Source: Rubrobacter aplysinae
Lineage (GTDB): Bacteria; Actinomycetota; Rubrobacteria; Rubrobacterales; Rubrobacteraceae
Length of the DNA: 48,061 nt
Direction of reading: 5' to 3'
NCBI RefSeq assembly: GCF_001029505.1
Contig: NZ_LEKH01000021.1
Coordinates: 1-48,061, forward strand
In this document: positions 17,116 to 30,129 of the stretch, piece by piece
Layout of the letters: the number at the start of each line of letters is the position of its first letter
How positions within the stretch are numbered: the stretch's first letter is position 1
Notes under the pieces: generated by a model
The model's input: only the letters and a program-made list of their open reading frames with translations
Told to the model about the DNA's origin: nothing
The model's database searches: none
Position numbers and translations under genes: made by a program

Positions 17116-17562
17116 TCAGGCGCGCCCGGCGAGGCTCCGCAGGTCTTCTCCGGTTATGCGATAAACCGTCCACCCGTCCATCGGGACCGCGCCCAGAGAC
17201 TCGTAGAAGCCGATGGCCGGCTCGTTCCACTTCAGCACCGACCACTCCAGCCGGCCGCACCCGCGCTCCCGCGCAAGCTCCGCCACCCGGCTTAGTAGCG
17301 CCACCCCCAGGCCGGAGCCCCGGAACCCGGGCCGGACGTACAGGTCCTCCAGGTAGAGGCCGGGACGCCCGAGAAAGGTCGAGAAGTTGTGGAAGAACAG
17401 GGCGAACCCAGCCGGCTCTCCCCCGGCGTACCCGAGCAGCGCCTCGGCCACCGGACGTTCACCGAACAGAGACTCCCTGAAATCCTCTTCGGTGGCGACG
17501 ACCTCGTGCGAGAGATGCTCGTACTCGGCGAGCTCCCGGACGAGGGCCAGGATCAGGGGCAC
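17116..17562 (-). CDS. GNAT-family N-acetyltransferase (SSAT-like)
   Basis: An acetyl-CoA-dependent N-acetyltransferase. Motif A is seen in LEDLYVRPGFRGSGLGVALL (acetyl-CoA pyrophosphate loop R-G-x-G-x-G/A) and motif B in RLEWSVLKWNEPAIGFYESLGA, resembling spermidine/spermine and diamine acetyltransferases. GTG 17562 is the first canonical start, but the frame continues upstream as EIEVRPATGED, which looks like the normal first beta strand of the fold. The real start may be a non-canonical ATA at 17619 overlapping the asd stop, or ATC at 17592. It is the last gene of the metX-asd transcript. Confidence 0.82.
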   Translation of the reverse strand: MPLILALVRELAEYEHLSHEVVATEEDFRESLFGERPVAEALLGYAGGEPAGFALFFHNFSTFLGRPGLYLEDLYVRPGFRGSGLGVALLSRVAELARERGCGRLEWSVLKWNEPAIGFYESLGAVPMDGWTVYRITGEDLRSLAGRA

Positions 17563-17615
17563 GTCCTCCCCGGTCGCCGGGCGGACCTCGATCTCCGCCG
17601 CGCCGGATACCCTCC

Positions 17616-18590
17616 CTATACCCGGCTCCCGACGAGCGTCTCCGCTATCTGCACCGCGTTGGTGGCCGCGCCCTTGAGCAGGTTATCCGAGACGCACCAG
17701 TAGCTTATGGCGCCTGGAGAGCCTTCCTCCACCCGCACCCGGCCGACGTAGGTGCCGGGCTCGCCGACGGTTTCGAGCGGCGTCGGGTAGTCGTCCTTGT
17801 CGCCGGAGAAGACTAGGCCCGGCGCGTTCGAGAAGACGTCGAGCACGGCTTCGAGGCTGGCCTCGCGGGTGGTCTCGACGTAGACGCTCTCGGAGTGGCC
17901 GGTGTGGACGGGGATGCGCACCGTGGTCGGGTAGACCGGGAGGTCCGGGAGGCCCAGGATCTTGGCCGACTCGTCCTTCATCTTGCGCTCCTCGGTGGTG
18001 TAGCCATCATCGCCGACGGAGCCGATGAGCGGGATGGCGTTGCCCGAGATCTCCTTCGGGTACACCCCTTCGCCGCCGGGCAGACCCTCCAGCGCCTCCA
18101 CGCCGCCGCGTCCGGAGCCCGAGACGGCCTGGTATGTAGAGACGATCACCTTCTCCAAGCCGAACTCCCGGGCCAGCGGCGCCAGCGGCACGACCATCGT
18201 GGTCGTGGAGCAGTTCGGGCTCGCGATGATTCCCTTGTGATCGCGCAGGGCGTCGGCGTTGACCTCCGGCACGACCAGAGGAACCTCGGGGTCGAGCCGG
18301 AAGTCCGACCCGTTATCTATAACGACCGCGCCGCGGGCGACGGCCTCGGGGGCTAGCTGCATGGCCGCGCCCTTCTCGCCCTCGGTCCCGGCGAAGAGGG
18401 CGTAGTCCACGCCCTCAAAGGCCGAGGCTTCGGCGACTCTTACGTCGAACTCCTCGCCCTGTATCTCCACCCGGCGCGCCGTGCGGGCCAGGACGCGGAT
18501 CTCATCCGCCGGAAAGTCCCGCCGCCGCAGTTCGGAGACCAGCCTCTCCCCGACGAGCCCCGCCCCGACCACCGCTACCGTATATCCCAT
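17616..18590 (-). CDS. asd: Aspartate-semialdehyde dehydrogenase
   Basis: It reduces aspartyl phosphate to aspartate semialdehyde, feeding lysine, threonine and methionine synthesis. The NADP-binding GAGLVG lies at 9-14. The catalytic Cys is C127 in SPNCSTTTMV, with substrate-binding R225 and catalytic-region H229/H232 in RIPVHTGHSES. The 324-residue length is slightly below the usual 330-345. ATG 18590 lies 6 nt after hom with GGAGGAGAG upstream. It belongs to the SAM-riboswitch-led aspartate-family operon. Confidence 0.95.
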   Translation of the reverse strand: MGYTVAVVGAGLVGERLVSELRRRDFPADEIRVLARTARRVEIQGEEFDVRVAEASAFEGVDYALFAGTEGEKGAAMQLAPEAVARGAVVIDNGSDFRLDPEVPLVVPEVNADALRDHKGIIASPNCSTTTMVVPLAPLAREFGLEKVIVSTYQAVSGSGRGGVEALEGLPGGEGVYPKEISGNAIPLIGSVGDDGYTTEERKMKDESAKILGLPDLPVYPTTVRIPVHTGHSESVYVETTREASLEAVLDVFSNAPGLVFSGDKDDYPTPLETVGEPGTYVGRVRVEEGSPGAISYWCVSDNLLKGAATNAVQIAETLVGSRV

Positions 18591-18596
18591 AACTCG

Positions 18597-19693
18597 CTAA
18601 CTCTCCTCCGTGTCTCGCGGGCCATCCGACTCTGCTACGGCCTTGTTTACTATGTCGAGGATATCGTAGACGACGCCACTCGCGGTGCGGTGCGGTCCAG
18701 CCCCCGGCCCGGTGACCGTGAGGGTCACGTCGTCGTAGCGCCGGGTGTGGAAGTCGAAGACGTTCTCGGGGCCGTCTATGGGGCCAAACGGGCTCTCGAC
18801 CGGCGTGTCCATGAGGCCGACCTCTACCGGGCCGTCCTTCGGGATCGTCGCCAGATAGCGCAGCATGTGCCCCGCCTCGACGGAGTTCAGCCGCTCGGCG
18901 AAGGCGTCGTCGGCCTCCGGCAACCGCCGCATGAACTCCTCCTGCGGCACGTCCTCCAGACCCTCGGGGACCAGGGACTCGTACGGTATATCTCCAAGCT
19001 CGATCTCACGTCCTATCGTCCGAGCCAGGATTATGGCCTTGCGGGCCACGTCCAGACCGGATAGGTCGTCCCGGGGATCGGGTTCGGCGTAGTGCAGGTC
19101 CACCGCCTCTCGTACCGCTTCGGAGAACGACCGGCCCGACTCGACCGCGCTCATTATGAAGCCGAGCGTGCCGGATGGGCTGGCCTGTATCTCGAAGACC
19201 TCGTCGCCGCTTTCGAGCAGGTACTTGAGGGTCGAGATTATCGGCATGCCGGCCCCGACGGTCGCCTCGTACCACAGCCGGTCCGGGGTCTCGGAGATCA
19301 GACGGTGGTAGTCCGCGCTCGGCCCGGAGAGCGGCCCCTTGTTGGAGAGCACCAGAAAGGAGCCGTTCCGGACCCCGGCGAGGTCCTGTGGAAACGTGCC
19401 GCCGTGTACCGCGAGATCCACCACGATCCGCGTCACGCCCGGCTCGGGCTCGCTGGCGAGCACGCTATCCAGGGGCTCAACGCCGAGCTCAGAGAGGCTC
19501 CCGCCGCCTTCCTTGAGCTTTACCGCCCGCGGCAGCAGGTCCTCGCCCACCAGCGCGCCCGAGGTGTCGGCCACGGCGTGGTAGCGGACGTCTATGCCGT
19601 GGCGCTCGCGCCACCGCTTGCGCTCTTCGAGCACGATCTGGGCCGTCGCCCGGCCGACGTGCCCGAGGCCGAGCTGCACCAGCTCAACGCGTC

Positions 19694-19697
<4 letters not shown>
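18597..19697 (-). CDS. hom: Homoserine dehydrogenase, ThrA-type, without ACT domain
   Basis: It reduces aspartate semialdehyde to homoserine. The N-terminal nucleotide-binding segment is LVQLGLGHVGRATAQIV, and the catalytic region includes VLSNKGPLSG, YEATVGAGMPII and PSGTLGFIMS. The 366 residues resemble the dehydrogenase half of bifunctional ThrA more than the ~430-residue Hom with C-terminal ACT domain, so feedback control probably rests on the kinase. The GTG start overlaps the lysC stop as GTGA, giving strong coupling; this reads like a split thrA. Confidence 0.93.
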
Positions 19698-23550
<3,853 letters not shown>

Positions 23551-23605
23551 ATTCGGTAGTAATGCAGCCTCCTCTCTTCCGCAAGGTGAACAGGTTTTCG
23601 CCAAC

Positions 23606-23636
23606 GGCTCCGTTATTCAGTCATTCAGCCGGAGCC
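23606..23636 (-). promoter_or_regulatory. Leader hairpin covering a possible metX ribosome-binding site
   Basis: GGCTCCG pairs with CGGAGCC (7 bp, 17-nt loop) on the minus strand; GGAG in the 3' arm ends 3 nt before TTG 23604. The hairpin may be part of the riboswitch expression platform, hiding the translation start. Confidence 0.4.
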
Positions 23637-23660
23637 ATCCTACGCGCAACCCGCTCGGTA

Positions 23661-23683
23661 GAAGAGGCCGTCTACGGCTCTTC
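23661..23683 (-). promoter_or_regulatory. Hairpin at the 3' edge of the riboswitch (expression platform candidate)
   Basis: GAAGAG plus CCG pairs with CGG and CTCTTC with one bulged base, immediately after the P1 stem of the aptamer. It shares its first base with P1, so the two stems may compete. No U-tract follows. Confidence 0.4.
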
Positions 23684-23800
23684 CCACATCTTCCAGGGCG
23701 CTGCTCACGCCCTGCTGGACTTGGCACCTCGCGGCTATATGCCGCCGCCGGTTGCCGCGGTTTCTCGGGGCCAGTTCCCTCCGCCGCTCTCGATGCGAGT
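23683..23800 (-). promoter_or_regulatory. SAM-I (S-box) riboswitch
   Basis: Read on the minus strand, the S-box consensus elements appear in order. They are CATCGAGAG with the kink-turn GGCGGAGGGAAC, then TGGCCC, the CGGCAACC core, GGTGCCAAGTCC, the P4 hairpin CAGGGCG/CGCCCTG, and GAAGATG closing P1. P1 pairs CTCGCATC with GATGTGGG, with two G-U pairs. S-box RNAs bind S-adenosylmethionine and usually switch methionine genes off. It lies 130 nt upstream of metX on the same strand and just after a promoter, so control of the metX-metY-lysC-hom-asd operon follows. Confidence 0.9.
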
Positions 23801-23815
23801 CCGCGCTAAGCCGGG

Positions 23816-23844
23816 ATGCTAAAGCACCGGCCTCCCGCCGTCAA
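23816..23844 (-). promoter_or_regulatory. Promoter of the SAM-riboswitch/aspartate-family operon
   Basis: TTGACG (23839-23844), a 17-nt spacer and TAGCAT (23816-23821) on the minus strand. The predicted start near 23809 is just upstream of the P1 stem of the S-box aptamer, as expected. Confidence 0.65.
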
Positions 23845-26079: not shown

Positions 26080-27816
26080 ATGCACAAGCAAAACAAGCGC
26101 GGCCTCCTGCTCACGCTGGCGTTTCTCTCGGTCGTGCCCGCGGCCGCCCACCTCGCCTACTCCTGGATGGGCTTCAGCCCGACCGACGACGGCTTCACCC
26201 TGGCGTACAGCCGACGCCTGCTGGAGGGACAGGTGCCGCACCTGGACTTCATCATCATCCGCCCCCCACTCTCTCCCCTGCTACACGCGCCTTTCGTCCT
26301 CCTCGGCGGGGAGTACATGTACTGGATCTCACGCCTCTTCGTGTGGTTCGAGTTCGCCGTCATGGCCTGGGCCTGGGTAAGCGCCGCCGGACACGTCTTC
26401 GAACGCGCCTCCGGCCGATCCTTCGGGGCCACCGTCAAGGTGCTACTCGGTCTCGTGGCCTTCGCCGCCTCGGCCCAGCACTTCGTCATAACGGCCTGGC
26501 ACACCATAGACGGCCTCTTTCTGGCCTCTATCGGGGCGTGGCTGCTCGTCTCCCGCCAGGGCTCGGGAGGTAGAGCGCCCGGCTATCTGGGCTATCTGGG
26601 ATACCTGCTGATCGGGGCCGCCTATCTGGTGAAGCAGAGCTTTATCTTCATGCCGCCGCTTTTCCTGCTCGCGCTCGGGGACTGGCGCAGGGCCCGGTAC
26701 TGGATAGCCTCCGCGATACCCGGGCTCCTGTACTTGGCCTACCTCCTCGCGACCGGCGCGCTGCCGGACGCCTTCGAGCAGCTAACCTCCCAGACCAGCG
26801 TGGTATCGGCGGGTGTGATCAGCTACCTCAACTACGCCGTCGTCCTGGGCCTGATAATCGGGGCGGCCTCGACGCTGCTGATAGTGGCGGGACACAGGCT
26901 GCCGGGGCGGGGTGGCGACGCCGGGAGCCCGCGCCTGCCGGAGACTGCCGGGGCGCTCGCCTTGGCCGGACTCCCCATAGGCGTCACGGCGGTCGGGATG
27001 GTTCTGGACAGCCTCTCCACCATAGCCTTCGGCATCTTCGGCATGCTGCTCGGGGTGGTCGTCGTAACGCTCGGCCCGGCGCTCTACCGGGGAGGCTGGC
27101 GGCTAAGAGAGAACGTAGACCCCGCGCGCCTGGCGATACTCGCCCTGATCCTGGGCTGGAGCAGCTCCCTGTCCTTCGGGTATAACACCCCGTCGCTCGC
27201 CCTGGGGCCGATGATCGTCGCGCTCGCGGCGTTCGCCTACCCGACACTCGTCCCCGCTCCCCATCGCGGGGGAGCGGCCTCTCACGCGTCGCGCTCGCGG
27301 TTGGCGCGGGGCCTGCTGATCGCCGTCGCCCTCGCGCTGGTCATCAGCTTCGGGTGGAGCAGGACCTACTACATCTACCGTCAACCCTCCGCCGGAGAGC
27401 TAACGAAGCCGGCGGGTGAGGTGCTACCCGGAGGACGGCTCATCTACACGGACGGGCCAACCCACGAGTTCCTGAGGGAGATCCGGGAGGGACGCCGCAT
27501 GGCCGAGCGGCGGGGCAAGGAGTACGCAATAGTCCCGCAGGCCGCGGGATACTGGCCGCAGGCCGAGCAGCCCAACCCCCTGCCCATAGACTGGCCCTGG
27601 TCCGTCGAGCTCGCCACGCCGGAGCTTAGAGACCGCGTAAAGGACGACCTCGAGGCCGGACGCGGAGAGACGATAGTCCTGGCCCAGAAGGTGGACGCCT
27701 TCGAGCTGTCGTTCGGCCCGGAGCCCGCGACGGGCGAGATGTACGAGGTGCTGCGCTACGTCCGCGAAAACTGGGAGAAGACCGGCGAGACCAGGTACTT
27801 CGAGATCTACGAGTAG
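26080..27816 (+). CDS. Polytopic membrane protein, GT-C glycosyltransferase-like
   Basis: A 578-residue protein with about ten hydrophobic spans through residue ~435 and a C-terminal soluble part of ~140 residues. After the first span, DDGFTLAYSRRLLEGQVPHLDF followed by RPPLSP in the first loop resembles ArnT/PMT-type GT-C enzymes, which use lipid-linked sugar donors and place an acidic pair in this loop. The specific substrate is not recognisable. In-frame GYLGYLGYL reflects a short internal repeat. ATG 26080 has only a weak ribosome-binding site. It stands alone between proS and a convergent transporter gene. Confidence 0.7.
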   Translation: MHKQNKRGLLLTLAFLSVVPAAAHLAYSWMGFSPTDDGFTLAYSRRLLEGQVPHLDFIIIRPPLSPLLHAPFVLLGGEYMYWISRLFVWFEFAVMAWAWVSAAGHVFERASGRSFGATVKVLLGLVAFAASAQHFVITAWHTIDGLFLASIGAWLLVSRQGSGGRAPGYLGYLGYLLIGAAYLVKQSFIFMPPLFLLALGDWRRARYWIASAIPGLLYLAYLLATGALPDAFEQLTSQTSVVSAGVISYLNYAVVLGLIIGAASTLLIVAGHRLPGRGGDAGSPRLPETAGALALAGLPIGVTAVGMVLDSLSTIAFGIFGMLLGVVVVTLGPALYRGGWRLRENVDPARLAILALILGWSSSLSFGYNTPSLALGPMIVALAAFAYPTLVPAPHRGGAASHASRSRLARGLLIAVALALVISFGWSRTYYIYRQPSAGELTKPAGEVLPGGRLIYTDGPTHEFLREIREGRRMAERRGKEYAIVPQAAGYWPQAEQPNPLPIDWPWSVELATPELRDRVKDDLEAGRGETIVLAQKVDAFELSFGPEPATGEMYEVLRYVRENWEKTGETRYFEIYE

Positions 27817-28896: not shown

Positions 28897-30129
28897 CTAC
28901 TCCGGCCAGACCCCCTGCTCCTCGCGCTCGACGTGGTATCCGGCGTTCTGCAGATGCTCCACCACGTCGTCGCCGTGTCCCCCGTCCCGGACCTCAAGAA
29001 CTAGCTCGAGCCCGACCTTTCCCAGCGGCGCGAGCCATACGGCGCGGCGGTGGAAGATGTCCACGACGTTCGCCCCGGCCTCGGCGACGGAGTCTATGAG
29101 CGGGGACAACGAGCCGGAGCGGTCGAGCACGGAGAGCCGGAGCAGCAGGTAGCGTCCCTGACGTACCATGACCTGCTCTATAACGCGCGAGAGCAGGTCC
29201 CCGTCAATGTTGCCGCCGCAGAGGACGGTGCAGACGGTGTCCGAGGCACCGACCGCCACCTTCCCCGACAGCAGCGCAGCCGCGCCGGCCGCGCCGGCTC
29301 CCTCGACCACCAGGCGGTTACGCTGGGCGCAGTGGGCGATGGCGCGGGCGATCTCATCGTCCGTGACCTCGACGACCTCGTCCACCAGATCGCGGATAAT
29401 CGGCAGCGTCAGCCCGCCGGGACGCTTGACCGCGATGCCGTCCGCGATGGTCTGTGAGCCAGCCGCCGCAACGGGCTCTCCGCGCTGCAGCGACGGCCCG
29501 ACGGACGAGAAACCTTCCGCCTGAACCCCGACCACCCTCACGCCGGGCACGAGAGCCTTGAGCGCCGTGGCGATGCCGGAGATCAGACCCCCACCACCTA
29601 TCGGCACCACTGCCACCGAGACTCCGGGCAGAGACTCCGCTATCTCGAGACCCACCGTGCCCTGACCGGAGATCACCCGCTCGTCGTCGAAGGCGTGTAC
29701 GGAGGTGTAACCGTGCTCCAGCCGCAGCTCCTCGGCCTTGAGGGCGGCGTCGTCAAAGGTGTCTCCTTCGAGCACCACCTCAGCGCCAAGCTCGCGAGTA
29801 GCCACGACCTTGGTGAGCGGCGCGAACCCCGGCATGACGATGGTTGCCCGCGCCCCGAGCAGCCTCGCGGCCAGCGCCACCCCCTGGGCGTGGTTTCCGG
29901 CTGAGGGTGAGATCACGCCGCGCTCCCGCTCCTCTTCCGAGAGGCTGCGCAGCTTGTTGTACGCGCCCCGGATCTTGAACGACCCGCTACGCTGCAACGA
30001 CTCGGCCTTGAGGTAGACACCCGCCCCAAACCGCCGAGACAGATCCTCGTCGACCAAGAGCGGCGTCTCGTTCACGATTCCCCGCTGAGCCTCGGCCGCT
30101 TCACGTATCCCGGTCAGATCTACGGTCAC
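28897..30129 (-). CDS. ilvA: Threonine ammonia-lyase with single C-terminal ACT domain
   Basis: This PLP enzyme deaminates threonine to 2-oxobutanoate, entering isoleucine synthesis or threonine breakdown. The PLP lysine is K52 in SGSFKIRGAYNKL; SAGNHAQGVALAARLLG and the phosphate-binding GGGGLISG are clear. Residues about 330-405 form one ACT domain (LLRLSVLDRSGSLSPLIDSV). The single short ACT domain and 410-residue length resemble the catabolic/TdcB-with-ACT type more than E. coli IlvA, so the direction of regulation is uncertain. GTG 30129 starts 2 nt after serS with GGAG in the serS end. Confidence 0.92.
   Translation of the reverse strand: MTVDLTGIREAAEAQRGIVNETPLLVDEDLSRRFGAGVYLKAESLQRSGSFKIRGAYNKLRSLSEEERERGVISPSAGNHAQGVALAARLLGARATIVMPGFAPLTKVVATRELGAEVVLEGDTFDDAALKAEELRLEHGYTSVHAFDDERVISGQGTVGLEIAESLPGVSVAVVPIGGGGLISGIATALKALVPGVRVVGVQAEGFSSVGPSLQRGEPVAAAGSQTIADGIAVKRPGGLTLPIIRDLVDEVVEVTDDEIARAIAHCAQRNRLVVEGAGAAGAAALLSGKVAVGASDTVCTVLCGGNIDGDLLSRVIEQVMVRQGRYLLLRLSVLDRSGSLSPLIDSVAEAGANVVDIFHRRAVWLAPLGKVGLELVLEVRDGGHGDDVVEHLQNAGYHVEREEQGVWPE

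Follow-up and report, generated by a model that had tools for sequence, protein, structure and literature searches.

The best described counterparts of the locus analyzed here are SAM-I (S-box) riboswitches that control homoserine dehydrogenase genes. In Xanthomonas campestris a SAM-I riboswitch heads a met operon composed of metA-metB-hom (PMC6230763, PMC7270179). The Shine-Dalgarno (SD) sequence of this leader is sequestered in the SAM-free fold and is freed by uncharged initiator tRNA, a precedent for translational SAM-I control of an operon that contains hom (PMC7270179). In Clostridioides difficile, hom1 is under the control of a SAM-I riboswitch, a second hom is controlled by two T-boxes, and lysine riboswitches control lysC and asd (PMC11477304). 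Thus, the initial annotation of this DNA, in stating that S-box RNAs as a rule regulate only methionine or SAM genes, overlooks known exceptions, hom among them (PMC6230763, PMC7270179, PMC11477304). Regarding Actinobacteria, the authors of a 2005 survey detected no conserved RNA structure ahead of the operons for threonine, lysine and methionine and proposed SD-sequestering translational leaders for ileS T-boxes and vitamin riboswitches (PMC1262725). Our search of the open-licence literature, whose scope makes the outcome weak evidence, yielded no publication that describes a SAM riboswitch from Rubrobacter.

We analyzed a stretch of 48,061 nucleotides from Rubrobacter aplysinae (contig NZ_LEKH01000021.1), referred to as the window. 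A cmscan of the window gave one Rfam match above the gathering score, namely RF00162 (SAM-I) on the minus strand at 23799-23683, with 77.2 bits against a gathering score of 44.4 bits, an E-value of 1.6e-16 and coverage of model positions 1-108 of 108. This bears out the SAM-I assignment made earlier from S-box consensus elements. The aptamer (23683-23799) lies in the 5' leader of metX on the same strand, a position that is also observed in relatives, and by sequence and structure this leader RNA is a SAM-I riboswitch that is predicted to bind SAM. The promoter that had been placed ahead of the S-box elements was recovered as TTGACG-17-TAGCAT at 23844-23816 (minus strand), the sole promoter-like site found on the minus strand from 16 to 24 kb by a sigma-70-like consensus scan, and nearly all relatives have an identical promoter in the identical place. 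Note that the previously annotated span, 23606-23844, contains the promoter, the aptamer and most of the expression platform, with the metX SD (23572-23568) lying outside of it.

Six same-strand genes follow the aptamer with intergenic gaps of 10 nt or less, in agreement with the layout that had been described. They comprise metX, coding for homoserine O-acetyltransferase (22378-23550; NF001209, 456 bits; start assigned by conservation), metY, coding for O-acetylhomoserine sulfhydrylase (21063-22367; TIGR01326, 677 bits), an aspartate kinase (AK) gene (19694-21073; TIGR00657, 245.8 bits), hom, coding for homoserine dehydrogenase (18597-19697; PF00742, 143 bits), asd, coding for aspartate-semialdehyde dehydrogenase (17616-18590; NF011456, 340.7 bits), and a GNAT-like acetyltransferase gene of uncertain start (17116-17619; tblastn to relatives, with GNAT assigned by reading the sequence), all on the minus strand. 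The successive gaps along metX-metY-AK-hom-asd-GNAT are +10, -11, -4, +6 and about -4 nt, and the 4 nt overlap of AK and hom is present in nearly all relatives. Elsewhere in the window there is a threonine ammonia-lyase gene at 28897-30129 (minus strand; TIGR01127, 450.9 bits), which lies some 5 kb away from the riboswitch, and a 578-aa open reading frame at 26080-27816 (plus strand) that matches nothing in Pfam or NCBIfam at E 0.001.

The initial annotation had also proposed that SAM throttles the shared trunk formed by lysC, hom and asd. When the genome (3.19 Mb, 98.9% complete) was searched for further copies of these enzymes, hom gave the only PF00742 match and asd was the only true Asd, the other PF02774 match (on contig C6) being argC. 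The single copies of hom and asd are in line with the proposal. For the first trunk step the proposal is not supported as it was put, since contig C4 codes for another aspartate kinase next to dapA, a canonical one with two ACT domains, indicating that SAM is not the sole control on the kinase step. The thrB gene and a thrC match lie together on contig C2, and therefore a threonine branch exists and depends on the hom of the window. Contig C3 carries the other RF00162 match of the genome (L002 1501-1633; L009 5244-11135), which precedes a gene for a bifunctional homocysteine methyltransferase/MTHFR followed by metH.

The AK and Hom coded by the operon gave no Pfam ACT match up to an E-value of 1, and the kinase has a reduced C-terminal region. 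An AlphaFold2 model of this AK (mean pLDDT 82.6) shows a confident kinase domain and apparently one ACT-like C-terminal fold, and in Foldseek the model groups with ACT-bearing aspartokinases such as 3c1n. Loss of allosteric control in the operon AK and Hom is therefore possible.

We compared the positions of hom, AK, Asd and RF00162 among 39 Rubrobacteraceae genomes from 13 genera, which also constitute the class-level sample. RF00162 is present in 39 of 39, and on unbroken contigs the only hom and the only Asd are always downstream of it on the same strand. In the remaining genomes the operon is split across contigs or a gene is missing from an incomplete assembly (examples are G002, G006, G007, G009, G016, G020, G029 and G032). 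The family gene order is RF00162-metX-(metY)-AK-hom-asd-(GNAT), with the GNAT-like gene found 3' of asd in many relatives, no metY between metX and AK in seven genomes (G001, G002, G003, G013, G014, G025 and G027), and AK missing from the operon in G033. In a wider sample of 158 Actinomycetota genomes, 69 genomes outside of the family have an RF00162 match, and by-eye comparison of positions found it heading hom in none of these 69, a count from which fragmented assemblies could hide a few cases. The closest approach is seen in G137, which has its RF00162 match 4.6 kb downstream of hom. SAM-I control of hom is already known; the new element, as read from gene positions, is the class-wide placement of the sole hom, the sole asd and a dedicated kinase behind a SAM-I riboswitch.

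We next consider how this riboswitch might act. The leader of the window folds with a z of -2.98, and the terminator scan predicted no intrinsic terminator in it. In an alignment of 32 leaders, the metX SD GGAGG (23568-23572, minus strand) is invariant, and an anti-SD, CGGCCTCTTCTACC (23657-23670, minus strand), offers it a possible pairing partner in every leader. A 7-mer perfectly complementary to the SD, with G-U pairs allowed, is present in 32/32 leaders as compared with 8.8% of mononucleotide-shuffled leaders. The helices that we assumed have 92.1% of cells paired across the 32 leaders, a value that falls to 44-58% once they are slid by 1-3 columns. Based on folds and our own reading, the alternative partner of the anti-SD is the 5' arm of an anti-anti-SD hairpin (23675-23685, minus strand) that overlaps the 3' strand of P1, and this hairpin can be drawn in approximately 27 of the 32 leaders. 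The switch thus looks translational, with the anti-SD competing with P1, and the anti-SD/SD complementarity together with the absence of a predicted terminator fits sequestration of the SD upon SAM binding. We dropped covariation as proof of this sequestration since, with an SD that is invariant, the score of the real alignment is matched by shuffles. Equilibrium folds keep the SD base-paired whether or not the 3' strand of P1 is available, which implies either a kinetic switch or the involvement of an additional factor, as has been reported for Xanthomonas.

Regarding the start of metX, which runs to 22378, the candidates are an ATG at 23550 and a TTG at 23604 (minus strand). The ATG is more likely because of conservation and fit to the SD; the conserved SD lies downstream of the TTG. 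The spacing from SD to ATG is an odd 17 nt, and the spacer is strongly conserved, as seen in CTGYATTACTNNNNAGYATGACAC (window 23572-23522, minus strand). A 13-codon frame that starts with ATT at 23563-23522 (minus strand) overlaps the metX start, has its TAR stop kept in 30 of 32 leaders and shows 36/17/44 changes by codon position; we consider it unproven as a gene, with a hairpin in the same stretch and no usual start codon. This GC-rich hairpin within the first metX codons (23506-23535, minus strand) comes from single-sequence folds and has weak consensus support. Most relatives have it, some of its changes look compensatory (L064 and L089), and its alifold energy of -2.8 compares with -0.36 (sd 0.70) for column shuffles. 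At least one column shuffle scored lower, and we no longer treat the hairpin as a strongly supported consensus structure. G034 has an extra RF00162 besides the operon copy (L036, G034:C436) with a metX-like leader in which ATC replaces the ATT of the conserved spacer. In G033, the relative that lacks the operon kinase, the metX ATG is replaced by ACG (L084, G033:C423).

The aptamer, the sole hom and Asd, the two kinases and the linkage observed family-wide in 39 genomes all argue for the following model, which we regard as probable. A single promoter would produce one mRNA with the SAM-I aptamer ahead of metX-metY-AK-hom-asd(-GNAT). As long as SAM is absent, the newly made 3' strand of P1 would be taken up into the anti-anti-SD hairpin that holds the anti-SD, leaving the metX SD free. 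With SAM, P1 would be locked and the anti-SD released to pair with the SD, so that metX would go untranslated. Since the genes share this mRNA and mostly overlap, expression of the downstream genes would drop partly through translational coupling and probably also through Rho polarity. The entry of homoserine into methionine synthesis would thus be hit hardest, and residual Hom and Asd would feed threonine synthesis by thrB and thrC and, together with the separate ACT-bearing LysC coded beside dapA, lysine and diaminopimelate (DAP) synthesis. With the metX SD as the apparent site of action, metX should be affected most, and hom and asd would probably be throttled only in part. We infer SAM binding, co-transcription, the direction of switching and the depth to which hom and asd are repressed.

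Complete SAM control of the trunk is possible. In such a case SAM would repress the whole operon fully and gate the homoserine and aspartate semialdehyde that go into threonine and lysine/DAP, as would fit with hom and asd being single in the genome, with overlapping genes that lack an internal promoter in the sigma-70-like scan, and with an AK and Hom that have no recognisable ACT domains, so that expression may be the main brake. However, a fully repressed operon should deprive the cell of threonine and cell-wall DAP at times of abundant methionine, and the apparent site of action is the metX SD and not a terminator. On balance we consider full repression to be unlikely.

Escape from SAM by internal promoters had been raised at the outset. 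A consensus scan of the window for sigma-70-like sites found no internal promoter in the operon, and none is conserved in relatives, where the only match was an isolated one before asd in one relative. Hom, Asd and AK could still be uncoupled from SAM by mRNA processing or by an internal promoter outside of the scanned type, such as one read by another type of sigma factor, an arrangement that has metabolic logic and that would find room in those relatives where asd is preceded by a gap of 85-154 nt or metX is followed by one of 30-132 nt. Yet the gaps in the window are at most 10 nt and relatives have no conserved site, which makes uncoupling improbable in our estimation. We likewise doubt that the switch works by transcription termination, either Rho-dependent, at sites that are unreadable from sequence with the tools used and for which untranslated metX mRNA would be a target, or at an intrinsic terminator missed by the scan, as the scan found no such terminator in the leader and SD/anti-SD pairing is possible in 32/32 leaders.

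If SAM does control the sole hom and asd, then the methionine signal would reach the supply of threonine, lysine and cell-wall DAP, as both enzymes behind the switch are needed for methionine and threonine and one of them also for lysine. The methionine signal may therefore reach further into amino acid supply than it does in better-known bacteria, and such a reach into the trunk would, if true, contradict the usual picture of separate regulation for each branch. A broader and rather speculative idea, to which we give little credence, is that in Rubrobacteria SAM is the main expression signal for the whole aspartate family, with a single riboswitch setting the only Hom and Asd, with methionine status limiting threonine and lysine/DAP and with RNA control offsetting eroded ACT control in the kinase and dehydrogenase of the operon. 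The fixed class-wide arrangement makes it directly testable in culturable Rubrobacter whether methionine causes threonine or DAP limitation or whether downstream genes are spared by translational control.

When compared with known systems, the enzymes of the operon resemble the enterobacterial bifunctional AK-HSD proteins ThrA and MetL. Specifically, the Hom of the window best matches a ThrA-type model, which AK matches as well, and the 4 nt overlap of AK and hom resembles a split ThrA. Unlike ThrA/MetL, AK and hom are separate genes with no Pfam ACT match, and their regulation also differs, given that enterobacterial ThrA and MetL are regulated by attenuation and by MetJ. Similar to C. difficile hom1, a homoserine dehydrogenase is under a SAM-I riboswitch, whereas the C. 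difficile trunk is not tied to SAM, with its lysC and asd under lysine riboswitches. With the X. campestris operon this locus shares a SAM-I aptamer, a leader with no intrinsic terminator, hom in the operon and an SD that is sequestered in the SAM-free fold, and the Rubrobacter platform looks like that of X. campestris, where control is mainly translational through SD sequestration. The X. campestris operon, in contrast, lacks aspartate kinase and asd and has a first gene named metA; uncharged initiator tRNA acts on its leader as well. Finally, Rubrobacter belongs to the same phylum as the Actinobacteria surveyed in 2005 and appears to share with them the SD-sequestering type of leader proposed in that survey (PMC1262725).
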